A stretch of DNA of 64,000 bases from an uncultured Ruminococcus sp. (GTDB lineage: Bacteria; Bacillota; Clostridia; Oscillospirales; Acutalibacteraceae), in the NCBI GenBank assembly GCA_902802795.1, contig CADCNI010000015.1, positions 1 through 64,000 on the forward strand, in the 5' to 3' direction. A program made the position numbers and the translations under genes. Below are positions 23,665-52,442 of the stretch, in pieces (positions within the stretch are counted from its first letter, which is position 1; the number at the start of each line of letters is the position of its first letter). The notes beneath the pieces were generated by a model, which worked only from the letters and a program-made list of their open reading frames with translations, was not told the origin of the DNA and did not search any database.

Positions 23665-26208
23665 TTATCCTACCGCTACGGGTACTGTTGTCGTTGTTGT
23701 TTCCACTGAAGTAGTAGTTTTTGAAGTTTTGGACGTCGTTTTAGAAGTTTTAGACGTTGTTTGGGATGTTTTGCCTGTCGTTTTGGACGTTTTTTCTGAA
23801 GAAGAAGAGGAAGAGGAAGTCGTCGAAGCAGTTGTAGACGCAGTAGTCGTCGTCTCAAACGCCCTTGCATTCTCCAATAGCGCCGTATAGGACTTTGTCA
23901 TCGTTCCACCGCCATGCAAAGGACAAATCGGCATGGCGGTATTTCTTGAATAATAACCGGTTGCCGTCGAGGGACAGTTGGAACTGGCCAGACCGCCTGA
24001 AATGAGACAATACTGCCGTCTTACCACATTATCACTCAAGTCAAAGCTCTTGGAACTAAGACCCTTATGCGCCGCTTTCATAACGTACGTCCATGCCTGT
24101 GTCGCGTAGTTGACGCTGGTATATTCCAGTTTCTTGTTGTCGGCGTAACCAAACCAGCAAGCGCCCACATAATAAGGAGTGCCGCCGCAGAAATAACGGT
24201 CCTTGTTGTCACTGGTGGTACCCGTCTTGCCAAAAGTATCAAAGCCGGAAATCTTCGCTCTGCGTGCAGTACCGTTGGAACCGTTGACAGGAGCCAGCAG
24301 CATTCTGTTCATTATGGAGGCGGACTCCGATTTCATCACGCGCACGCCTCTTGCAGAAGTATTCTCCAGCACAGTATTGCCCTGCTGGTCAGTGACAAGC
24401 GAATAAGAAGCGGGGGAATAATAGATGCCGCCGCTGCCAAACATGACATAGGCCGACGCCATTTCCAAAACCGTCACGCCGTCAGTCAAAGCACCCACGG
24501 ACATCGGCGCAAGGTTGTTGTCTTTCTCATTGAGTTTGATGGAGAGTCGTTCTGTGAGGAATTTATAACTCTGCTGAGGCGACATGTAGCGCACGATTCT
24601 GGCAGCCACGCAGTTGGCGGAAACTTCCAAACCCTTGACCACCGGAATGTTGCCGCGATATCTGCGGCTGTCGTTTCTCGGCCACTGGATGGTTTTGCCG
24701 TTGTCGCGAATAGTCATCTGCGCGTCGGTGACAGGAGTGGAGAATTCGATGACGCCCAGTTCCACTGCCAGTCCATAAGCACTCAGCGGCTTGATAGCGG
24801 AACCCGGCTGTCTCCGCGATTGAGAAGCATGATTCTGAAGTCGATTCGCGGTTTTTTCGCCGCGTCCGCCGACGATGGCTTTCAGCTCGCCTTCATAATT
24901 CAAAATGGCAATCGCACACTGCGGCTGCACCGAACGCGGGAATTTCTTCCAGTATTCGGTATTGTTGCCGGTCTTATTCTTAAATATCGCTTCCGCTTTA
25001 TTCTGGAGATCAACATTTACATTGGCAAAGATATTGAAACCGCCGTTGTACATCTGGAATCTGGCTTCACTTTCGGTCAGACCGTTGCGCTTTTGCAGAT
25101 CGTTGACAATGTCGGTAAAGATCTGCTCGGTGTACCAGCTCCAATAGGTTGTCGCGGCATTCTGGTTTTTTGCTTCCGTATTCAGACGGGAGATATAATC
25201 ATCTGCCTTGGCTTCTTCATACTCTTCCTGCGTAATAAATCCGTTTTCATACATTTTCTTCAGCACATAGCGCTGACGTTTCTGGTTCTCATCGGGATGA
25301 TAAAACGGATTGTACAGCGAGGGGTACTTGGTGATGCCGACAATGGCCGCCGATTCGGACAGACTCAGATCCTTGGCATCCTTGCCGAAATAAGTCTGCG
25401 CCGCAGTCTGAATGCCGTTGCAGCCGTTGCCCAGCGCGATAACATTCAGGTACGATTCAAGAATCTGGGGCTTGGTGTATTTCTTTTCCAGTTCAAGCGC
25501 CTTGAAGATTTCCTTGAGCTTTCGGTTGACGCTGTGGGCATCCTCTTTAGTGACGTTTTTGATGAGCTGCTGCGTGATGGTCGAGCCGCCGCGGTCGGAT
25601 TTGGTCAGATTGAGGAACATATTGGCAAACGCGAAGGTGGTACTCTTCCAGTCCACGCCGTGATGTTTCCAGAAACGCTCATCCTCTACCGCGACGATAG
25701 CGTCCTTGGTGTACTGCGTCATCTCGTCGTAGTCAATCCATTCGCGGTTCTCGGTGCCGTGCATTGTCTCGTATTTGATCAGATCACCGCCGCTGTCATA
25801 TGCGTAAATGGTAGTGGTGTAATTCAGCTTAAGCTGCGTCAGGTCGATATCCTTGACGCTCTTGTCGAGGAACGCGAGAACATACACCATAGCTGTAGCG
25901 CCCACAATGCAGCCGGTAATAACGCAAATAAGCAAAATCGTGGCCAGCGTCTTGGCCAGATAGCTGCCGGTTTTCATCATCACTTTCAGCCACAAAGGTC
26001 TTGAGGATTTCCTGCTCTCCACGCTGTCCGCTTCCGATCGCCTGACAGCCAGTCCGTTTCTTCTGGCGGAAACAGAAGAACGTCCCGATAATACGGTTTC
26101 CGATCCGCTCTTTAGGGAATCTACGCCTTTTCTGACGCCATCGGCCGCCTTTTCCACGCCGTCTTTGATTTTCTTGGAAAAGCTGTCAAATGAGTTTTGA
26201 ACTCCCAT
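23665..26208 (-). CDS. class A penicillin-binding protein (PBP1A type)
   Basis: A bifunctional peptidoglycan synthase of about 847 residues. The start at ATG 26208 was chosen for AGGAGGCG upstream. A basic cytosolic tail (about 90 residues) and one membrane helix are followed by the GT51 glycosyltransferase (VEDERFWKHHGVDWKSTT, RGGSTITQQLIKN) and the transpeptidase (SRRQPGSAIKPL with the SxxK serine, SANCVAAR, and KTGTTSDNKDRYF as the KTG box). The last 75 residues are a Ser/Thr/Lys-rich low-complexity tail built from repeated TSKTT units. That tail is extracellular, probably disordered and perhaps wall-associated. Confidence 0.96.
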   Translation of the reverse strand: MGVQNSFDSFSKKIKDGVEKAADGVRKGVDSLKSGSETVLSGRSSVSARRNGLAVRRSEADSVESRKSSRPLWLKVMMKTGSYLAKTLATILLICVITGCIVGATAMVYVLAFLDKSVKDIDLTQLKLNYTTTIYAYDSGGDLIKYETMHGTENREWIDYDEMTQYTKDAIVAVEDERFWKHHGVDWKSTTFAFANMFLNLTKSDRGGSTITQQLIKNVTKEDAHSVNRKLKEIFKALELEKKYTKPQILESYLNVIALGNGCNGIQTAAQTYFGKDAKDLSLSESAAIVGITKYPSLYNPFYHPDENQKRQRYVLKKMYENGFITQEEYEEAKADDYISRLNTEAKNQNAATTYWSWYTEQIFTDIVNDLQKRNGLTESEARFQMYNGGFNIFANVNVDLQNKAEAIFKNKTGNNTEYWKKFPRSVQPQCAIAILNYEGELKAIVGGRGEKTANRLQNHASQSRRQPGSAIKPLSAYGLAVELGVIEFSTPVTDAQMTIRDNGKTIQWPRNDSRRYRGNIPVVKGLEVSANCVAARIVRYMSPQQSYKFLTERLSIKLNEKDNNLAPMSVGALTDGVTVLEMASAYVMFGSGGIYYSPASYSLVTDQQGNTVLENTSARGVRVMKSESASIMNRMLLAPVNGSNGTARRAKISGFDTFGKTGTTSDNKDRYFCGGTPYYVGACWFGYADNKKLEYTSVNYATQAWTYVMKAAHKGLSSKSFDLSDNVVRRQYCLISGGLASSNCPSTATGYYSRNTAMPICPLHGGGTMTKSYTALLENARAFETTTTASTTASTTSSSSSSSEKTSKTTGKTSQTTSKTSKTTSKTSKTTTSVETTTTTVPVAVG

Positions 26209-26526
26209 TAAAATATCGCCTCCTGCAATTTTGGATATGCCTGTCGCACCGGGTTCCAACCCGTCTGCCTATGTATCTGCCAAGAACAGATCCCGCAGCA
26301 TAGTTCAGACAGCAACAGAACCAATATGGAGCTCTTATGTAAAACTTTCATCTAAACTATTATAACATAAAAAAACAATACTTGTATAGTATTCTCAAAT
26401 ATTTAATATTTTTGTAACCATCGTAAAAATTTTTCAAAAATAAGTATCAAAAAACATTAAAACGACCATAATTCTCTATGGAAGCCTCGTTTCATTGCTG
26501 ATGTCATTTCTAAAGGAGAAAAGAAT
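26209..26526. other. intergenic region between PBP1A and BofC-like genes
   Basis: 318 bases, AT-rich in its right half. It must contain the divergent promoters of both genes. No confident -35/-10 pair, repeat or RNA was recognised. Confidence 0.4.
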
Positions 26527-26898
26527 ATGAACAAAAAAGCTCTTTTTCCGCTCTTTCTGTCTTTTGCTGCGTTTTCCGCCTCGGTATATTCGCTCGCTTC
26601 AGCGGCTGCTTACCGTCCGCCCGTCAATCATGCGGATGCTCCGTTGTCCGCACAGCACCCGGCGATACTATCCCCTTCCGACGAAGCGTTCGGGGTCAAG
26701 GTAATCAGGCTCTACCACGGAAGCATTGGCGTTTTCACAGGAGACGCCGCCGTTCCCGATGAGCTATGGCCCGCCGATCTTTCCGCCCTGCCAGACGACG
26801 CGGTCGCGCGCTTGAAGAAAGGAATCTGCGTGCGCAGCCGCGAGGAATATCTGAATTATATAGAGGATTTTTCCGGCAGCCAATGGGATGAGGAATAA
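26527..26898 (+). CDS. secreted BofC C-terminal-domain-like protein
   Basis: A 123-residue protein with a signal peptide or N-terminal anchor (KALFPLFLSFAAFSASVYSL) and a C-terminal domain (about 55-118) resembling BofC: FGVKVIRLYHGSIGVFTGD, LPDDAVARLKKGICVRSREE, YLNYIEDFSGS. In Bacillus BofC is an intermembrane-space inhibitor of the SpoIVB protease during sporulation. Many Clostridia have short BofC_C-only proteins like this one whose partner is unknown. A TAAAGGAGAAAAGA site precedes the ATG. SpoIIID and the SASP in the same window fit a sporulation role (inference). Confidence 0.75.
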   Translation: MNKKALFPLFLSFAAFSASVYSLASAAAYRPPVNHADAPLSAQHPAILSPSDEAFGVKVIRLYHGSIGVFTGDAAVPDELWPADLSALPDDAVARLKKGICVRSREEYLNYIEDFSGSQWDEE

Positions 26899-27016
26899 AA
26901 TTCCGCCCACCTCCGTCTTCTTATGCTATAATGCCATCATTATACAACTTTTTCCCGTCCGATGCAACGGTATTTTTTTGAATATTTTTTATTTTTTCTC
27001 TTTCTCGACAGGAAAC

Positions 27017-27176
27017 TATAGCAATCCAAATAATCAGGGAGACAAAAGGAGGCGATGATGGTGAGTACAGGGCAAGGCGGAGGACGACGGTGGGCTAGCG
27101 CCCACCTAGGACGACAACGCAGCCATGCGCTCACCAGCGCGCCGAACTTGTCTTTTTGTTTGTTTGGATTGCTATA
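27017..27176 (+). mobile_element. MITE-like element, copy A (160 bp, full length)
   Basis: Starts TATAGCAATCCAAA and ends with its exact inverse TTTGGATTGCTATA; weaker inverted similarity continues inward. The central palindrome GGTGGGC-TAGC-GCCCACC can fold. It differs at only two positions from copy C (32989-33148). No transposase is encoded. TA at each end fits TA-target duplication as for IS630/mariner-type elements, supported by copy B. It carries AAAAGGAGG then ATGATG at 27055 and an ORF of 40 codons ending at its right terminus (27177). It sits just downstream of the terminator of the SH3/Ig-like gene. Confidence 0.9.
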
Positions 27177-27188
27177 AACAAAAGAATA

Positions 27189-27227
27189 AATGAGCACAAT
27201 TAGTGCATGTTACTAATCGTGCTCATT
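27189..27227 (-). terminator. terminator of the SH3/Ig-like protein gene
   Basis: Sixteen-base arms with one mismatch (AATGAGCACAATTAGT against ACTAATCGTGCTCATT), followed on the minus strand by a T-rich stretch (TTATTCTTTTGTTT) that runs into MITE copy A. Confidence 0.75.
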
Positions 27228-27265
27228 ATAGTAATAAAATACAGAGTATGCCCCGGTTTTGAGAA

Positions 27266-28738
27266 TCATATTATATAAGTATTTGATACACACTCAATTT
27301 CCCATTTGTTAAATTCGTTGATAAAGCTACCCACAGCACCTGTAGGACTGTCCGAATACTCTGGAAGCATAATATAAACTTGATATTCCGAATGATCATT
27401 CCCAAGTTTTAGGTTTCTTTCCGAATGGGTATCAAAGTTGCAAATTTCCTTTCCGTTCTTGTCTCGTAAAATAACATGAACCTTTGAAATTTGCAATGGC
27501 GTTCCCAATCCCCAAGTATGGATTTTGATATATCCGTTGCCTCTATTAGCATTAAGCTTAACTGTGGTGTATCCGCCCTCATCAATACTGCCTTTTCTTT
27601 TCGTTGTAATGCCAAGGACTTTAATCGTTTTTTTAGTCGAATAACCATCGCCTGTCGTGACTGTAATTGTTGCTGTACCAGCCCTTTTTGCGGTTATCTG
27701 GCCTTTGGAATTTACGCTTAAGACACTTAAAGCTGAACTTTTCCATTTTAACTGATTGGAAACGCCTCTCGTTGTTACACTAAGATTATATATATCTCCA
27801 ACATGCACTTCCTTGTTAAAATTATTCATTGAAATGCCGTTGATCACCACTTTGCAGGTTGCAATTTTACCGTTTGACGTTTTAGCTGTAATTGTTGCTA
27901 CACCGCAACTTTTAGGATAAACCGTCCCATCGTAAACCGTGGCAACATTACTGTTGTTGGTACTCCAAGTCACCTTTTTATTGGATGCATTTGACGGATA
28001 AACTGTTGCGGTTAATTTCTTTGTTTCTACTGTGTTTAATAAAAGACTTATATTTGTGCTGTTCAGAGTAATTTTCGTCGGTTGCACAGCAGGAGGATCT
28101 TTAATCGTAATTTGAGATTGACATTTGCCTTTAAATCCATCGGACATTTCAACTTTAATAGTCCAATTTCCCGTCACATTGCAACGATATCCTATCCAGT
28201 TATTATTGGTCTTTTGGTATGTGGCACTATGTACACGCTTACCACTCGGATTGTAAATGGATAACTTCATTGTACAGGATCTACCGCTATAAGGAATGTT
28301 GTTTTTATCAACAATGCCACTCCATACATAAACCATAGTTCCTTTTGTAAATGTTTCCGATTCACATTTGCTGGCTTCTTGATAAGAATATCCCCTGCCT
28401 TTGGTGGAAGCAAAAAGAGAACCATAAGCTTTATTATTGCCTTGATATTTACAGTAAGTCAAACAAACCCAGCCGGACTTATTGCCGTTACACTTGATAC
28501 TTGAGGTATAGCCCCAATCGCCGGATATCCTGGTTACTTGAAACTTCGTTCCATTAGCAGCCGCACCGACAACGGAATAATTGGTTCCGGCTCCGCTTCT
28601 GACATTTATTCCGTTGCGTTCGTTCACTGTATATATACCATTTGAATAAGATGCCGCTTGGGTCGGCATTGTGAACATTCCAAAGATAAAAAGAAATGCA
28701 AGAAATAACGACGCTGTTTTACCTGATTTAGTTTTCAT
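27266..28738 (-). CDS. secreted protein with bacterial SH3 and Ig-like (BIG2) domains
   Basis: 490 residues from ATG 28738 (AAGGAG nine bases upstream; an in-frame GTG at 28744 is too close). A signal peptide (TASLFLAFLFIFGMFTMPTQ, then AA) is followed by an SH3b domain (about 35-95, GINVRSGAGTNYSVVGAAAN), a beta-rich middle region, then two BIG2 Ig-like domains (about 220-300 and 300-375; TKKLTATVYPSNASNKKVTW and AGTATITVTTGDGYSTK) and a C-terminal beta domain. SH3b suggests binding to peptidoglycan. No catalytic domain or sortase signal is seen. Probably a surface adhesin or wall-associated protein. Confidence 0.85.
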   Translation of the reverse strand: MKTKSGKTASLFLAFLFIFGMFTMPTQAASYSNGIYTVNERNGINVRSGAGTNYSVVGAAANGTKFQVTRISGDWGYTSSIKCNGNKSGWVCLTYCKYQGNNKAYGSLFASTKGRGYSYQEASKCESETFTKGTMVYVWSGIVDKNNIPYSGRSCTMKLSIYNPSGKRVHSATYQKTNNNWIGYRCNVTGNWTIKVEMSDGFKGKCQSQITIKDPPAVQPTKITLNSTNISLLLNTVETKKLTATVYPSNASNKKVTWSTNNSNVATVYDGTVYPKSCGVATITAKTSNGKIATCKVVINGISMNNFNKEVHVGDIYNLSVTTRGVSNQLKWKSSALSVLSVNSKGQITAKRAGTATITVTTGDGYSTKKTIKVLGITTKRKGSIDEGGYTTVKLNANRGNGYIKIHTWGLGTPLQISKVHVILRDKNGKEICNFDTHSERNLKLGNDHSEYQVYIMLPEYSDSPTGAVGSFINEFNKWEIECVSNTYII

Positions 28739-28793
28739 TTTCACAATCTCCTTTGTAGATAGTCAGTAAACCTCATTGAATATAAACCGATAT

Positions 28794-29396
28794 TTACCAC
28801 ACCTTTCCACAACGCGTACATTGATGCGTCTGTCTTACCCTACCATAAGTACCATAATTTTCATAAGGATAAGGAATTCCCAAAGGATCAAAGTAAATAG
28901 AAGTACAACCGCAACTCGGACAATATTCAATTCCAGCTGCTCTGGCTTGCTCCTTGCGTTTATCTTCCTCATCGCTTTCTGCTTTTTTTCTGCGGATAAC
29001 CGAAAGAATTATAAAATAAATGATTCCAATTGCAATCAAATATCCCAATAAAAGCCCGACGGAAGCCAAAAAGCCCGCCGTCTCCATTCTTCCGTCTTCT
29101 GCTAAGGAACCGGTGAAATACATGACAAGCGCTCCGCATACACCATCTGCCCACAGAGGATAACCGAAGTAAACCACAGCGATCAGCACAACCCACATAA
29201 TAAGCGCGGCAAAGAAATTAACGCCATGTCCGTTATTGCACGCATCGGAATGAAGATAGAACACCACAACTGTTACTATCGCATAACTGAACCATCTTAA
29301 AAGCTTACTTATAGCAATCCAAACAAACAAAAAGACAAGTTCGGCGCGCTGGTGAGCACATGGCTGCGTTGTCGTCCTAGGTGGGCGCCAGCCCAC
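28794..29396 (-). CDS. membrane protein with C-terminal zinc ribbon, 5' end interrupted by MITE copy B
   Basis: The surviving frame has two to three membrane helices (IMWVVLIAVVYFGYPLWADG; LASVGLLLGYLIAIGIIYFI), a charged stretch, then a zinc ribbon (CPSCGCTS ... CTRCGKVW). Its first 29 codons come from the MITE. The original start is at ATG 29468 behind AAGGAGGTG; it reads MDDFFDTV and then meets a TAG at the element border. Removing the element plus one TA gives MDDFFDTVLSKLLRWFSYAI in frame, a 180-residue protein. The element supplies AAAAGGAGG and an in-frame GTG (29396) 11 bases later, so translation may restart. Function unknown. Confidence 0.75.
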   Translation of the reverse strand: MGWRPPRTTTQPCAHQRAELVFLFVWIAISKLLRWFSYAIVTVVVFYLHSDACNNGHGVNFFAALIMWVVLIAVVYFGYPLWADGVCGALVMYFTGSLAEDGRMETAGFLASVGLLLGYLIAIGIIYFIILSVIRRKKAESDEEDKRKEQARAAGIEYCPSCGCTSIYFDPLGIPYPYENYGTYGRVRQTHQCTRCGKVW

Positions 29397-29443
29397 CGTC
29401 GTCCTCGCCTCCTTTTGTCTCCCTGATTATTTGGATTGCTATA
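29310..29443 (-). mobile_element. MITE-like element, copy B (134 bp, internal deletion)
   Basis: Same termini as copy A but in opposite orientation. It lacks 26 internal bases between two short GGAGGCGA/GGCGGAGGA-type repeats, so the ATG pair is lost and the AAAAGGAGG is retained. It is inserted in codon 9 of the membrane protein gene, flanked by TA on both sides. Confidence 0.9.
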
Positions 29444-29650
29444 ATACGGTGTCGAAAAAATCATCCATTGCCACTTTCACCTCCTTTTTCACAGAAATTC
29501 AGATATCGCAAAGCATAATAAATGCTTTCAAGGAAACACCAAATATTCTGTGTAACTGTACTTATAGTATATATTATCCATTCGATAATGTCAATAGTCT
29601 GTTTATTATTTTTAATAATATTTTTAGACTGTATTCGGGAGATGATATAC

Positions 29651-29986
29651 ATGAATGATATTTCTAAAATCGTGGGAGCAAGAATTCGTTCCTATCGCCT
29701 ACAACAAGGCTTGACACAAGAGGAATTGGCGGAACTCGCTTCTTTGCATAACACCTATATTGGTCAGGTGGAACGAGGCGAAAAAAACTTAACCATCATA
29801 AGTCTTGAAAAAATATTGTCCGCTCTTGGCATTACTTTTTCTGACTTTTTCGCATATATGCAATCTTCGGATAATAATATCAACACAGCCTCAGAATGTT
29901 ATGAATTAATCAATAAAAAAAGTGAAGAAGAACAAAATATTATAAAAGCAATTCTGCTCAATATAGACCACCTCATGAAAAAATAG
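29651..29986 (+). CDS. XRE-family HTH regulator
   Basis: A 111-residue regulator starting at ATG 29651 behind CGGGAG. The helix-turn-helix covers residues about 8-65 (GARIRSYRLQQGLTQEELAE, LHNTYIGQVERGEKNLTIIS). The motif HNTYIGQVERGEKN is typical of the SinR/restriction-modification controller type. A short helical tail (about 75-111) may dimerise. It is divergent from the MITE-disrupted membrane protein gene, with about 180 bases between the starts, so it may regulate that gene (inference). Confidence 0.88.
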   Translation: MNDISKIVGARIRSYRLQQGLTQEELAELASLHNTYIGQVERGEKNLTIISLEKILSALGITFSDFFAYMQSSDNNINTASECYELINKKSEEEQNIIKAILLNIDHLMKK

Positions 29987-30079
29987 ACCTGTTCCAACCA
30001 TATTCCGCGCCAACTGACATCCCTGCCTTCCGCTGACAAAACTCACTGCATAGCCATTGTCCATGCGGGCGAACAAAAA

Positions 30080-30124
30080 ACAAACGGCAGAGGGGAAATA
30101 ACCTTTTCCCTCTCTGCCGTTTGT
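30080..30124 (-). terminator. terminator of the SASP gene
   Basis: CAAACGGCAGAG(G)GGGAAA pairs with TTTCCCTCTCTGCCGTTTG. On the minus strand it is followed by a run of T (TTTTTTG). Confidence 0.8.
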
Positions 30125-30163
30125 CCGATCACACATTCCGTTCTGACCTCGTGGCCTTATAAT

Positions 30164-30190
30164 GAACGGTTCGTTGAAACGACCGTTTTT
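30164..30190 (+). terminator. small plus-strand terminator
   Basis: AACGGT pairs with ACCGTT around TCGTTGAAACG, followed by six T. It probably ends readthrough from the HTH gene. Confidence 0.6.
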
Positions 30191-30223
30191 TCAACCGATC
30201 AGATGAAATCACAGCGAGAATAA

Positions 30224-30424
30224 TTACTTTACGCTGTTTTCATAGGACTCGATCATCTTTTTGACCATCTGGCCGCCGATGCTGCCCGCTTCTCTGGACG
30301 TGAGGTGGCCGTTATAGCCTTCCTTGAGGTTCACGCCTACTTCGTTGGCAGCTTCCATCTTAAAACGGTCAAGGGCCTCTCTTGCTTCGGGTACGACGAT
30401 TCTGTTACTGGACTTGTTAGACAT
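30224..30424 (-). CDS. alpha/beta-type small acid-soluble spore protein
   Basis: A 66-residue DNA-coating spore protein that protects dormant-spore DNA. The hallmark sequences are present: VPEAREALDRFKMEAANEVG, containing the GPR protease cleavage region (EAANEVGV), and NGHLTSREAGSIGGQMVKKM near the C-terminus. The length is normal for the family. AGAAGGAGTGC precedes the ATG. Expression is expected from the forespore sigma-G; no sigma-G promoter was confidently read. Confidence 0.96.
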   Translation of the reverse strand: MSNKSSNRIVVPEAREALDRFKMEAANEVGVNLKEGYNGHLTSREAGSIGGQMVKKMIESYENSVK

Positions 30425-30529
30425 GATATAAGCACTCCTTCTGTTAATTTCTTTGTTGCATACTCTCCGTGCGCCGGCATTACTATTGTGCGCGGCATAT
30501 GCTGCAATATAACTGGAAGTTTTTGCACG

Positions 30530-30734
30530 AGTGTGAAATGTGAAATTTCATTAGAATGACTTCACTGTGTTACGAGCAAAATAATGATGTAAGTGATAAT
30601 ACATAAGCATAGATGTCAGTTTGTACAAAGGTAGAGGACGGCGCATTTTAACAGTCGTCCTCATTTATAAAAAAAGTGGAAAGGATTTTGATAGAGAAAT
30701 GCAGTAATCACTGCATAATTTCACATTTCACACT
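30530..30734. repeat. inverted-repeat element with GTGTGAAATGTGAAATT arms
   Basis: AGTGTGAAATGTGAAATT (30530-30547) is repeated exactly in inverse at 30717-30734. Between them are a GAGGACG/CGTCCTC hairpin and a small GCAGT-AATC-ACTGC palindrome. A related arrangement of the same GTGAAATGTGAA words occurs at 59357-59473. This is a non-coding repeat family; no ORF is inside. Confidence 0.65.
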
Positions 30735-30827
30735 TCACATTTCACATTAATCGCCATATGTATCACAGTCACATCCGGAGAGAAACAGCGGTTTGATGGG
30801 AAACATCGCTGTGATTTTTTCGGATGG

Positions 30828-31067
30828 TCCTTTTGGGATCCCCTTTTGTCGTGCGGCAAAGGCGAAGCCGAGTAACCGATTCTGACGAATCACCGAATCA
30901 ACGCACCACCTGTACTTTCGCACTCACACCGATCTGATTTGTTCCCTGACGGCCGTTTCCCTGCCGGATGTGAGCAGACACCGCCCAACGCACGGCTGAC
31001 GAAATTCAAACGAAATACCGATTTCCCGAAATCTTTGATTTCTGCGAAATCGGAGATCCCAAAAGGA
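30828..31067. other. structured intergenic segment of unknown nature
   Basis: TCCTTTTGGGATC (30828-30840) is a perfect inverse of GATCCCAAAAGGA (31055-31067), enclosing about 215 bases with internal hairpins (GATTC-TGAC-GAATC, CCGATTTC/GAAATCGG, CGGC/GCCG). Just upstream, ACAGCG/CGCTGTGATTTTTT at 30785-30818 could terminate, and ATCACAG at 30762-30768 could compete for its 3' arm. I found no ORF with a ribosome site and no match to a known RNA class. Promoter-proximal RNA or mobile repeat are both possible. Confidence 0.4.
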
Positions 31068-31191
31068 ACCTCTTTGTGTCTGCAATTCTATTATTTGTCA
31101 ACCATCGGGAAATATACGCAGAAGAATCGGAAAAAAACAATGTATCTTTACTATTTTTTACCATTTTTTGTGCGATTTCCTAATTTTCTCC

Positions 31192-31220
31192 TTGAATTAT
31201 TGCGAACGGCATGATAAAAT
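31192..31220 (+). promoter_or_regulatory. sigma-A promoter of glgA
   Basis: TTGAAT (31192-31197), 17-base spacer, TAAAAT (31215-31220). Confidence 0.7.
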
Positions 31221-31299
31221 GAATACGTAAGCCGATTGTCCGTATTCGATGGGCAATCAGAAATCAGCGAAAGAACATTCGAGTTTAGGAGGACGAAAT

Positions 31300-32757
31300 A
31301 TGAGCAATATTTTGTTTGTAGGTTCGGAATGCGATCCTTTTGTAAAGACCGGCGGTCTGGCCGACGTCATGTCCGCACTCCCCAAGGCGCTTGCCAATCA
31401 GGGAAACCTTGACGTCCGTGTCGTGCTGCCGTGCTACACATGCATTCCCGAGCATTTCCGCAACAGTATGACCTATGTGACCCACTTTTACATGGACTTC
31501 ACCCGTGACTGCCACATGTATTATGTGGGTCTGAAGGAATACTGGTGGAACGGCGTGAGATTCTACTTCATCGACAACGACTATTTCTTCGGCAGAGGCA
31601 ATCCCTACACGGATATGGCGGGCGACATTGTCCCCTTTATCTTCTTCTCCAAGGCGGTGCTGGCCTCCATGTGCGCCATCGGGTTCCATCCTGACGTCAT
31701 TCACTGCCACGACTGGCAGGCGGCGCTGGTGCCGGTCTATCTGCACACCGTCTATGAGGGCAACCCCTTCTACAACGGCACCAAGACCGTGCTGACGATT
31801 CACAACCTGCACTTCCAGGGCATCGCCAATATCGACACCGTCAAGTATCACTCCAATATTCCCGAGTATGCCTTCTCACCCGATCGCCTTGAGTTCAACG
31901 GCGACGCGAACATCATGAAGGGCGGCATTGTTTACTCCAACTTTGTCACCACCGTCAGCAACACCTACGCCAACGAAATCAGAACCCCCGAATACGGCGA
32001 GGCTCTCGACGGCGTGCTGAACGATTACGCCTACAAGCTGGGCGGCATCGTCAACGGCGTGGACTATGACACCTACAACCCCAGCACCGACTGGTACATC
32101 TATGACAGATACGGTGTGGACAACTTCCCCGACGCCAAGCGCTGGAATAAGGAAAAACTCCAGGGCGAACTGGGTCTGGAAAGAGACGTCAATAAGTTCA
32201 TGATCGGCATTATCTCCCGTCTCACCGACCAGAAGGGTCTTGACCTCGTCAATCAGGTCATGAACCGCATTGTGGACGATCACACGCAGGTGGTCATCAT
32301 CGGTACGGGCGATCAGAAATACGAAGACGCGTTCCGTTATTATGAATATTATCACAAGGGCCGCGTCTGCTCCAACATCATGTACTCCAACGAGAGAGCC
32401 CACAAACTCTACGCCGCCGCCGACGCGATTCTCGTTCCCTCCCGCTTTGAGCCCTGCGGTCTGACCCAGCTCATCGCCATGCGGTACGGCACCGTGCCGA
32501 TCGTGCGTGAGACGGGCGGTCTGAGAGACACCGTGCAGCCCTACAACGGCTTTGACCACACCGGCACCGGCTTCTCCTTCTACGAGTACAACGCGGAAGT
32601 CATGCTCAACGTCATCAACTTCGCCAAGCAGATCTTCTATGAAGATCGTTTTGGCTGGGAGAGCATCGCCAGACGCGGCATGGAGTCCGACTTCTCATGG
32701 TACCGCTCCGCCGGCGACTACAGAAATATCTACAATTGGCTCATGAGCCAGTGGTAA
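31300..32757 (+). CDS. glgA: glycogen synthase GlgA (paralogue 1)
   Basis: A GT5 starch/glycogen synthase that extends alpha-1,4-glucan from ADP-glucose. 485 residues from ATG 31300, with TAGGAGGACG upstream. The N-terminal ADP-glucose motif KTGGLADVMSALPKAL is intact near residue 15, HDWQAALVP lies near 145, and the C-terminal FEPCGLTQLIAMRYGTVPIV carries the catalytic Glu region. It is monocistronic and stands apart from the glgB-C-D-A2 operon at 43.6-50.1 kb. Because its sister GlgA2 lacks the KTGG lysine, this is the copy with full consensus chemistry. Confidence 0.97.
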   Translation: MSNILFVGSECDPFVKTGGLADVMSALPKALANQGNLDVRVVLPCYTCIPEHFRNSMTYVTHFYMDFTRDCHMYYVGLKEYWWNGVRFYFIDNDYFFGRGNPYTDMAGDIVPFIFFSKAVLASMCAIGFHPDVIHCHDWQAALVPVYLHTVYEGNPFYNGTKTVLTIHNLHFQGIANIDTVKYHSNIPEYAFSPDRLEFNGDANIMKGGIVYSNFVTTVSNTYANEIRTPEYGEALDGVLNDYAYKLGGIVNGVDYDTYNPSTDWYIYDRYGVDNFPDAKRWNKEKLQGELGLERDVNKFMIGIISRLTDQKGLDLVNQVMNRIVDDHTQVVIIGTGDQKYEDAFRYYEYYHKGRVCSNIMYSNERAHKLYAAADAILVPSRFEPCGLTQLIAMRYGTVPIVRETGGLRDTVQPYNGFDHTGTGFSFYEYNAEVMLNVINFAKQIFYEDRFGWESIARRGMESDFSWYRSAGDYRNIYNWLMSQW

Positions 32758-32795
32758 TTTTCCACAAGCCGCTCCAGCGAATCTGACTCACAATT

Positions 32796-32840
32796 AAAAC
32801 CCTCGTTCGGGATGGGTTCCTGTCCCGGACGGGGGTTTTG
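32796..32840 (+). terminator. glgA terminator
   Basis: AAAACCC(T)CG...TCGGGA pairs with TCCCGGACGG(G)GGTTTT, ending in a T-rich tract. Confidence 0.8.
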
Positions 32841-32870
32841 TGTTATCGTTTTGAAGGCAAGTGCATCTTG

Positions 32871-32980
32871 CACTCCCCCAGTCGCTACGCGACAGCCCCC
32901 TCAGAGAGGGAGCCGATAATGCCTCGCCGATAATGCCTCCCTCTCTGAGGGAGGTGCCGCCTTTGGCGGCGGAGGGAGTG
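32871..32980. repeat. CACTCCC-bounded palindromic repeat
   Basis: It begins CACTCCC and ends GGGAGTG. CCTCAGAGAGGGAG (32899-32912) is a perfect inverse of CTCCCTCTCTGAGG (32937-32950), and a 14-base unit GCCGATAATGCCTC is tandemly doubled at the centre. It is followed by a GCCGCC/GGCGGC hairpin. Repeats of this sort are widespread in gut Clostridia genomes. It now also forms part of the extended terD reading frame. Confidence 0.75.
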
Positions 32981-33676
32981 AATGTCACTATAGCAATCCA
33001 AATAATCAGGGAGACAAAAGGAGGCGATGATGGTGAGTGCAGGGCAAGGCGGAGGACGACGGTGGGCTAGCGCCCACCTAGGACGACAACGCAGCCATGT
33101 GCTCACCAGCGCGCCGAACTTGTCTTTTTGTTTGTTTGGATTGCTATACCGGCAGAGCTCCTCCAGACCGCCGTCCGCCGCTTCGCAGATTTTTTCGTAT
33201 TCCCAGCCGCCGTCCGTGCGGGACAACTTAGCAACCGCCATGCCGGAACGGGCGGGATAATCTTCACTCAGATTCACGCGGCTGAACCAGTCGCTGCCCT
33301 TGTCGTACTGATCGGCCACACGCGCGGCGGCAAATTCGGCATTTAATACTTCTCCGAATTGACAATGCGCCTGCGAACGGGTAAAGGACACGCCAAAGAC
33401 AAGACTCTGCACGTTGGCGGGGATTTTGGCAAAATCGACAAAAATGCTCTCATCCATGCCGTCGCCCTCGCCTGTGGTATTGTCTCCCGCGAATACCAGC
33501 GCGTTGTCGCCGTAAACCGCCTGATTGTAGAAGATCACACCGTCGTCTCCCATGATCTTTTCCTCGCCGTCCAGCAGAAAGGCGGCAAGATCCAGATCGT
33601 GACCGCCATTGTCTCCGCAGTCCCAGCCAAGCCCGACGCGAAGATATTGTACGTCGTTTCCCAATGCTAGTTTCAT
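32885..33676 (-). CDS. terD: TerD-family protein with C-terminus replaced by MITE/repeat sequence
   Basis: 263 residues. Residues 1-177 are a normal TerD/TerE domain: ALGNDVQYLRVGLGWDCGDN, GHDLDLAAFLLDGEEKI, the Ca-binding acidic loop TGEGDGMDESIFVDF, and LSEDYPARSGMAVAKLSR. TerD proteins usually end a few residues after GGLxxLCR. Here the frame enters MITE copy C right after ...EELCRY and continues through the element and the CACTCCC repeat, adding about 85 non-native residues. With the element and one TA removed the frame meets TAG after LCR. It is the last gene of the operon terD2-unknown-terD. TerD proteins are linked to tellurite/stress responses and Ca binding. Confidence 0.88.
   Translation of the reverse strand: MKLALGNDVQYLRVGLGWDCGDNGGHDLDLAAFLLDGEEKIMGDDGVIFYNQAVYGDNALVFAGDNTTGEGDGMDESIFVDFAKIPANVQSLVFGVSFTRSQAHCQFGEVLNAEFAAARVADQYDKGSDWFSRVNLSEDYPARSGMAVAKLSRTDGGWEYEKICEAADGGLEELCRYSNPNKQKDKFGALVSTWLRCRPRWALAHRRPPPCPALTIIASFCLPDYLDCYSDIHSLRRQRRHLPQRGRHYRRGIIGSLSEGAVA
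32989..33148 (+). mobile_element. MITE-like element, copy C (160 bp, full length)
   Basis: It differs from copy A at two of 160 positions. It has the same TATAGCAATCCAAA termini and central GGTGGGC/GCCCACC hairpin. It is inserted at the 3' end of terD, opposite to that gene, and immediately beside the CACTCCC repeat. Confidence 0.92.
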
Positions 33677-33691
33677 GTTGCTATTCCTCCG

Positions 33692-34672
33692 TTATGCCAG
33701 ATTCATTTTTTGCCGTAATTTGTCCGCCATCTGCGCGATTTCGTCGTTTTCGCCCTCGTATTTTGTGAAAATATCATCGAGAATCGGCGCGTCCGCCTGG
33801 GTCAGCGGCATGGCATCCGCCTTTTGCAGGAAGGTGCGCACGATGTCCTCCCCGTTTTCAAAAAGCGAGATGCCGGGGCAGGGACCTTCGTCGAGAAGCC
33901 CTTCCAGTATATCACGGATGCACACAAAATCCTCATAGGACAAATCCTCGCTGTCAAGCAGCGCCTCCGCCCCCGAATTTCCCCAGCACAGGTCGGCGCT
34001 GTAAGCGGGCAGCACTTTGTTGTGTACGCCCTCGCGCAGCAGCCAGTCCCGTATTTCGGGCGTAGCGGGCGAAAGCCGCTCAATGGCGTGAATTCTGCCC
34101 CAGCCGCGCACCTTTTGCGCGATACGGAAAATTTCTTCGTTGGCGTTCTCCCAGCTTGCCCGGATGACGAAAAGGGCGAAAATCGTGAATTCGTCAGACA
34201 GCGCCAGCGTGCGGATGGCGTCGCGCAGCACCTCGTCATCCGAGGTGACGAGTTCCAGCACACAAAGACCGAATTTCACGCACTCCCGGTCGGTTGATTC
34301 CAGAACGGCATGCACCGCGTAGCGGTAAAGGACATCCGGGTCGATTTCGTCCTTGCGCTCCAGAATCGCTTGCTGAAAATCATCAATGATGGCGATGGCT
34401 CTTGCTTTTTGCCCCAGTTTGGTGAATAACTGATCCGTCAGTCGCGTCTCTCCCGCGCACATCGCGCGGATCGCCTCGTCCATCAGAGGACGCGCCTCCT
34501 CCGAAATCCCCTCGTGCGCCATGTGAAAGATAAACATACCGTCTATCGCGCCGTCGGCAAATCGCAATCCCTCCCCTTCATTGCTGTCGGGCAAAGAGAA
34601 ATCCTCCGGCAACGCGCCGTCCGTCACATGCTCCGCGATGTATGCATAGAGGGATTTTTCCCGTTTTTTCAT
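33692..34672 (-). CDS. uncharacterised protein of the TerD operon
   Basis: 326 residues from ATG 34672, with AGGAGGGC upstream; a GTG at 34702 would overlap the previous gene. No catalytic motif, signal or membrane segment is visible. The sequence is acidic and mostly helical, with repeated units of about 40 residues (for example LYRYAVHAVLESTDRECVKF, ELVTSDDEVLRDAIRTLALS, IFALFVIRASWENANEEIFR) reminiscent of HEAT/TPR-like solenoids. It lies between two terD genes with gaps of 15 and 26 bases, so it is probably a partner in the same stress function. Family not recognised. Confidence 0.7.
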   Translation of the reverse strand: MKKREKSLYAYIAEHVTDGALPEDFSLPDSNEGEGLRFADGAIDGMFIFHMAHEGISEEARPLMDEAIRAMCAGETRLTDQLFTKLGQKARAIAIIDDFQQAILERKDEIDPDVLYRYAVHAVLESTDRECVKFGLCVLELVTSDDEVLRDAIRTLALSDEFTIFALFVIRASWENANEEIFRIAQKVRGWGRIHAIERLSPATPEIRDWLLREGVHNKVLPAYSADLCWGNSGAEALLDSEDLSYEDFVCIRDILEGLLDEGPCPGISLFENGEDIVRTFLQKADAMPLTQADAPILDDIFTKYEGENDEIAQMADKLRQKMNLA

Positions 34673-52304: not shown

Positions 52305-52442
52305 TATAGCAATCCAAATAATCAGGGAGACAAAAGGAGGCGATGATGGTGAGTGCAGGGCAAGGCGGAGGACGACGGTGGGCTGGCGCCCACCTAGGAC
52401 CAGCGCGCCGAACTTGTCTTTTTGTTTGTTTGGATTGCTATA
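52305..52442 (+). mobile_element. MITE-like element, copy D (138 bp, internal deletion)
   Basis: Same 14-base perfect termini as the other copies. It lacks 22 bases (the GACAACGCAGCC...CTCAC part), so its small ORF is frameshifted; AAAAGGAGG-ATGATG is retained. It is inserted at TA between the hairpin (52441-52496) and the T-tract (52293-52302) of the HAD gene terminator. Confidence 0.9.

Follow-up and report, generated by a model that had tools for sequence, protein, structure and literature searches.

Introduction

Among the repeats described so far, the RUP of pneumococcus is the closest in kind to the element treated here. Two papers describe RUP as a repeat of 107 bp, present in about 110 copies and inserted at TA, with ends like those of IS630-Spn1, its presumed mobiliser, and with occasional disruption of genes (PMC2229807; PMC3049150). 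In this study, we explored a MITE in a genome of the Ruminococcus group which appears to work like RUP. It is likewise short, folded and present in many copies, with a TA target, ends of IS630 type and gene disruption, but it differs in its length of 160 instead of 107 bp, its G+C-rich core and its host, and its cognate IS was seen only in congeners. The likeness is one of description.

The Correia/NEMIS elements of Neisseria carry TATAG-type ends and use a TA target. They measure about 107 and 155 bp and give stem-loop transcripts (PMC2229807), a size class shared by the present MITE, although the host differs and the likeness is again one of description. ISY100 and the IS630-Tc1/mariner group show TA duplication on insertion and short terminal repeats (PMC2170065), both of which recur here; copy B, the copy of main interest in this study, differs from ISY100 in being without a transposase, and the related IS is seen here only in pieces that lie at contig ends. 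In-frame reading inside host proteins is possible for the Rickettsia palindromic elements (RPE) (PMC2229807). Copy C of the present MITE is similarly read through in a TerD-like frame, but the family is of TA/IS630 type, and for copy B a fusion is no more than one possible reading. A report on Thiomargarita describes a MITE that interrupts hupL and likens another MITE to Correia elements (PMC4853749). Gene interruption by a MITE is an ordinary kind of event, and the family described here belongs to the known broad IS630-MITE kind; in the open-licence PMC literature, no paper on this particular MITE was found.

A folded element in about ninety copies

The window, i.e. the whole stretch of 64,000 nt that was analysed, holds four copies of the element, as follows.

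27017–27176, plus strand: MITE copy A, 160 bp (from ends and alignment)
29310–29443, minus strand: MITE copy B as assembled, 134 bp (consensus 160), with TA at both borders
29380–29397: central hairpin core of copy B (from the fold of an intact copy)
29405–29406: probable faulty assembly join in copy B, 26 bp of the left arm missing (from core read-outs and the 160 bp found in congeners)
32989–33148, plus strand: MITE copy C, 160 bp (from ends and alignment)
52305–52442, plus strand: MITE copy D, 138 bp in the assembly, with a break contig-right of the hairpin (from ends and alignment)

Copy B is bounded at both ends by TATAGCAATCCAAA. Eight such ends occur in the window, all of them exact, whereas shuffled sequence gives 0.56 on average even when up to 2 mismatches are tolerated. 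In each of the four window copies, the terminal inverted repeats agree in 14/14 bases at either end. In the 2.82-Mb draft, the exact 14-base end is found 177 times (101 forward, 76 reverse) and the reversed-pattern control 0 times, from which we estimate about ninety copies in the genome. Allowing up to 2 mismatches, the genome has 79 right ends. Copies with both ends number 62 in 81 fetched stretches, which rest on the first 100 of the 177 end places, leaving out left-end-only copies on later contigs. The family consensus is short (160 bp), repeated and without a transposase gene, and an intact copy of this length folds over its whole extent into one hairpin (−87.5 kcal/mol, z −10.5); Rfam gave 0 matches at gathering scores over positions 26000–34000.

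Beyond this genome, 4 of 17 congeners (G003, G012, G015, G017) have matches to the MITE with E below 1e-20. In a family sample, which held three congeners, none of the 299 other genomes contains the right-end pattern, even when up to 2 mismatches are allowed, and searches of phages and plasmids by blastn and of viral contigs with an exact 37-base pattern found no copy. Some MITE copies in the own genome sit within a second, G+C-rich interspersed repeat (...GCGAGCGAATGCGAGCGCGGGGTCC...; L097, L128, L130, L143, L110, L120, L125, L140), some of them at an equivalent TA.

One-sided breaks at the hairpin

Repeats limit short-read assemblies (PMC7283042). The 62 aligned copies range from 107 to 183 bp, and wherever a change amounts to at least 5 bp, an edge of it falls on or within the central hairpin, a pattern that hairpin processing could produce; smaller changes also occur away from it, e.g. 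4 bp in a T-rich stretch (L165 and L168), and in L138 the hairpin itself is lost. Taken at face value, these lengths would be real and due to biological deletion or duplication outward from the hairpin, a reading which we consider extremely improbable in light of how the breaks are placed. We took 88 hairpin cores with up to 2 substitutions and read them outward on both sides. In 62 of them, including copy B, the contig-left side is intact and the contig-right side is broken within 20 nt, in both orientations (27 plus, 35 minus); of the rest, 9 show no break on either side, another 9 are whole on the left and retain part of the right side, 5 have the break on the left only (4 at contig starts, 1 the second core of a duplicated-core copy) and 3 are degenerate or stray. 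Among the aligned copies, 47 differ by more than 2 bp, and the contig-right arm is affected by loss in 41 of these, with 22 left-arm losses, all in minus copies, and 19 right-arm losses, all in plus copies; the others are 5 copies with an insertion or loss in the core, and L138.

Replication-linked deletion was also considered and rejected, since contig-right breaks occur on contigs of both GC-skew signs (fetched stretches positive in 21 and negative in 15 of the 36 contigs with such breaks), which equally speaks against real lengths. Three further observations stand against real lengths. Of 31 contig starts examined, 6 lie 6–11 nt ahead of the core (a contig end just after the core was seen in 1 of 28). 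Full-length matches in congeners, all in G003 and G017, measure 160 bp in 7 of 9 cases, the others being 156 and 182 bp. Finally, all 15 near-full-length copies differ from the consensus, 13 by substitution and 2 by a small indel only, which could itself be a join; counting substitutions alone, 13/15 near-full-length copies carry one versus 13/47 broken copies (p 1e-4). Our reading is that copies which differ were resolved by the assembly, and that identical copies were collapsed and then badly rejoined. At the copy on contig C7, the loss does not stop at the border of the element but takes in 44 bp of flanking DNA, which is present in G017.

The 134 bp of copy B are very probably an assembly artefact, probably 26 bp too short, and we infer a true length of 160 bp. 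The junction between copy B and its flanks stands nevertheless, because both ends are present and the loss is internal.

The interrupted gene

Around copy B, the following features were read.

28794–29309, minus strand: interrupted gene, 3' part (SKLLRW...CTRCGKVW, stop); membrane protein with a zinc-ribbon-like tail, no Pfam match
29444–29468, minus strand: interrupted gene, 5' end (MDDFFDTV and the first base of a Leu codon), matching the N-terminus of a paralogue
29472–29474, minus strand: alternative GTG start, 5 nt after GGAGG (read in sequence)
29480–29486, minus strand: ribosome-binding site AAGGAGG (read in sequence)
29566–29594, minus strand: promoter-like TTGACA-17-TATACT upstream of the gene, 11/12 consensus positions (consensus scan)
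28794–29396, minus strand: open frame of 200 codons that begins at a GTG of the element and runs on into the gene (chimeric product possible)

An earlier note on this DNA had claimed that copy B interrupts a gene and that excision down to one TA restores its frame, reading MDDFFDTV and then TAG from ATG 29468 on the minus strand. The TAG indeed straddles the element border, and the reading before it is one residue longer, MDDFFDTVL. Keeping one TA at the join gives MDDFFDTVLSKLLRWFSYAI... and a frame of 180 residues with its stop ending at 28794, as claimed. The joined product is a membrane protein with a zinc-ribbon-like tail (CPSCGC...CTRCGK) at its C-terminal end. The predicted empty site, with one TA kept, reads ...GTATTAAGT..., and its junction on the DNA is ...GACACCGTA-TTA-AGTAAGC.... 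This joined frame is to be understood as the gene before insertion, not as an expected excision product. The protein matched 0 Pfam families at E 0.01, its NCBIfam matches all lie below cut-off and its PHROGs match is weak; a sequence search for a related solved structure found none.

The same note had assigned ATG 29468 a consensus ribosome-binding site. A GGAGG is present, but at 11 nt from this ATG, and the in-frame GTG 29474, two codons earlier, is nearer. The gene may start at this GTG, because AAGGAGG ends only 5 nt before it. The promoter-like pair further upstream (29594–29566) is only suggestive, because the consensus promoter scan of the kilobase found 5 sites compared to 3.0 in shuffles.

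Restoration of a frame by joining at one TA is weak evidence by itself. When an ORF of at least 300 nt spanning the join was sought at the 62 paired copies in the fetched stretches, it was found in 21/62 with the TA join and in 19/62 each with a join one base shorter or one base longer. What makes the interruption at the copy B site convincing is a paralogue in the own genome (contig C7, L066:1444-1818), which has the frame without insertion. The paralogue shares 44% identity with the interrupted gene in the part after the junction and has a longer N-terminus than the joined protein. Their local alignment begins at residue 3 and runs gap-free over the junction until well past it, pairing DFFDTVLSKLLRWFSYAIVT of the joined protein with DFTQTIGQKLLKWCSYVIVT of the paralogue. 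The nine residues before the junction reach a BLOSUM62 score of 12 against the paralogue at fixed offset, a score which 99 of 32,056 stop-free nonamers of the window also reach, i.e. they beat 99.7%. This match of the N-terminus across the junction bears out the interruption claimed before.

It should be noted that the two flanks could in principle have been brought together by a false scaffold join at the repeat, with no gene interrupted, since the assembly breaks at the MITE in many places and copy B is among the broken copies. We regard this as very unlikely: the similarity to the paralogue is gap-free over the join and includes the residues on the short side, and the short piece is preceded by a ribosome site in the proper order, which a random join would hardly yield. 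The paralogue match thus also argues that the flanks of copy B were correctly adjoined by the assembler. At the paralogue locus itself, a MITE copy lies just downstream of the paralogue, and the corresponding locus in congener G017 (L062) holds partly duplicated sequence.

A DNA search for an orthologue, run without a positive control, was negative in 17 of 17 congeners. In a protein search of 60 genomes, 5 matched (the own genome and four congeners), mostly via element-encoded residues, and besides the own genome only contig C224 of G017 matched the gene itself; among 398 family genomes including the own, four others gave weak matches. No empty allele of the copy B site was found among the 17 congeners by DNA or among viral contigs with the exact 39-base junction.

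The earlier note had also called the insertion recent, and here the undecayed frame and the 0 differences between copy B and the consensus over 134 aligned bases are in favour. The mean divergence of the 62 copies, 0.46%, suggests a young MITE family, and a recent insertion of copy B is plausible. However, the identity of copy B may partly be a product of assembly, because consensus-like copies are the ones most often broken, and since assembly collapse can also homogenise copies, we leave recency as likely rather than proven.

Six candidate interrupted genes, represented by 10 pieces (both sides at four sites, one side at two), were searched against Pfam. At the copy at 2961-3115 of L147 (contig C70), one side resembles DUF4428 with 27.3 bits, just under the cut-off of 27.8, the other side matches SHOCT with 38.7 bits, and the two pieces are in phase with one TA kept. 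DUF4428 and SHOCT occur together elsewhere, and this copy may split another gene. The other candidate sites gave no Pfam match above cut-off, with a sub-threshold TAXi_C match for one piece of L107.

Duplication of TA and the putative mobiliser

The restored frame had previously been taken as direct evidence of TA duplication, for which, as set out above, it is too unspecific. The duplication is instead visible from pairs of filled and empty sites. Searches with the flanks gave 50 paired rows, of which 13 have one-TA spacing and the other 37 other spacings within the second, G+C-rich repeat family. We inspected 11 of these 13 rows (4 filled sites), and in 11/11 the filled site reads TA-element-TA and the empty site a single TA; the cleanest comparison is that of L097 with L130 and L143. 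These sequence pairs show that the MITE family duplicates its TA target on insertion. At the paralogue locus on C7, the own genome reads CTTA and then the element, and G017 has CTTAATCG there, the left junction of another empty site.

With regard to the mobiliser, contig C173 of congener G003 carries a fragment of an IS630-family transposase (DDE_3; NF033545, E 2.1e-36), whose stop codon lies 17 bp inside an end reading TATAGCAATCCAAATAATCAG. Over 21 bp, this end is identical to the left end of the MITE. Six congeners (G001, G002, G003, G009, G013, G014) together yielded twelve such ends, with 0 mismatches in the 21 bp in 4, 1 in 1, 2 in 5 and 3 in 2 of them. Eleven of the twelve read into the C-terminus of the transposase, most over only 24–38 residues before the contig end, and the twelfth, in G001, has too little sequence for the transposase to be read. 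The IS is present as fragments at contig ends, and the congeners display only this one type of IS end, the opposite end not being seen. We therefore propose, from the identity of these ends, that the MITE is transposed in trans by a transposase of the IS630 family.

The cognate IS630 was not found in the own genome (G000), where the only DDE_3 match lies on contig C3. The IS630 transposase encoded there shows 29% identity where it aligns and was rejected as the mobiliser, being without MITE-type ends. The cognate copy may have been lost from the own genome or may be missing from the draft, as may be the case for a multi-copy IS.

A possible start of translation inside the element

The gene might still be made from GTG 29396, which lies within the element, in which case the hydrophobic LVFLFVWIAI, with which the element-encoded part ends, would stand in for the lost N-terminus. 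No stop interrupts the frame between this GTG and the gene, and the full-length element has a GGAGG 6 nt before it; the chimeric frame reads TGG in copy B where copy C has TAG. Across the family, the outward frame A of the right end continues for at least 200 codons in 9/62 copies versus 8/186 for the three other frames that are mostly open at a border (uncorrected p 0.016, in a comparison that left out two usually closed frames, 0 and 1 of 62), but at 50 and 100 codons the uncorrected p rises to 0.085 and 0.17. At least 4 of the 9 long continuations (L106, L111, L132, L151) have, by eye, an apparent start of their own 5–10 codons past the border. These four are most simply insertions just upstream of genes, because an own start follows so soon after the border. 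In addition, GTG 29396 lies within the hairpin stem, and the native start is preceded by a ribosome site as well as the promoter-like pair. On balance, we consider expression from this GTG unlikely.

A broader form of this idea would make the element a donor of N-termini, the GGAGG-6-GTG and LVFLFVWIAI of its right arm rebuilding the first membrane helix of the truncated protein, and copy C likewise adding a tail. If true, the insertion would swap the N-terminus of a membrane protein and the gene would not be killed; we judge this decidedly unlikely. With regard to copy C, a frame with a TerD domain (window 32885-33676, minus strand) is read through it and gains an element-encoded stretch of 53 residues and a further tail; the TerD match ends at residue 176, at the border. 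At L106, L111, L132 and L151, the right end of the MITE faces the gene, about 5–10 codons upstream of its apparent start, and an effect of the MITE on expression of the adjoining gene is possible.

Conclusions

We propose a model, which we hold to be very probable, in which copy B is a non-autonomous hairpin MITE that was inserted in trans by an IS630 transposase at a TA within codon nine of a gene for a small membrane protein, leaving the gene most likely inactive or strongly reduced. A transposase of the IS630 family, of Tc1/mariner type, would move the MITE by cut-and-paste, acting in trans. Duplication of the TA on insertion would bring a TAG right up to the border of the element, and the 160-bp element, adding a net 158 bp, would also shift the frame. 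The normal product of the gene would thereby be lost, and the gene would most likely be inactive or strongly reduced. This silencing is what we infer from the interrupted reading frame. Several observations weigh on the other side, namely that neither a cognate IS630 in the own genome nor an empty allele of the copy B site was found, that the second case of an interrupted gene depends on a single domain match that falls slightly short of its cut-off, that the paralogue is only 44% identical after the junction with a longer N-terminus, and that the GGAGG ahead of the GTG in the full-length element makes expression of a chimera possible.

Beyond this locus, about sixty copies of the hairpin repeat in the draft carry one-sided joins that look false, and any lengths, frames or flanks taken from these repeats would mislead. 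One-sidedness along the contig provides a simple test for such an assembly error. For the biology of the group, the results provide one well-supported interruption of a gene by an IS630-type MITE, and they add a high-copy MITE of this type in a Ruminococcus-group genome, one end of which is tied to a named transposase family.
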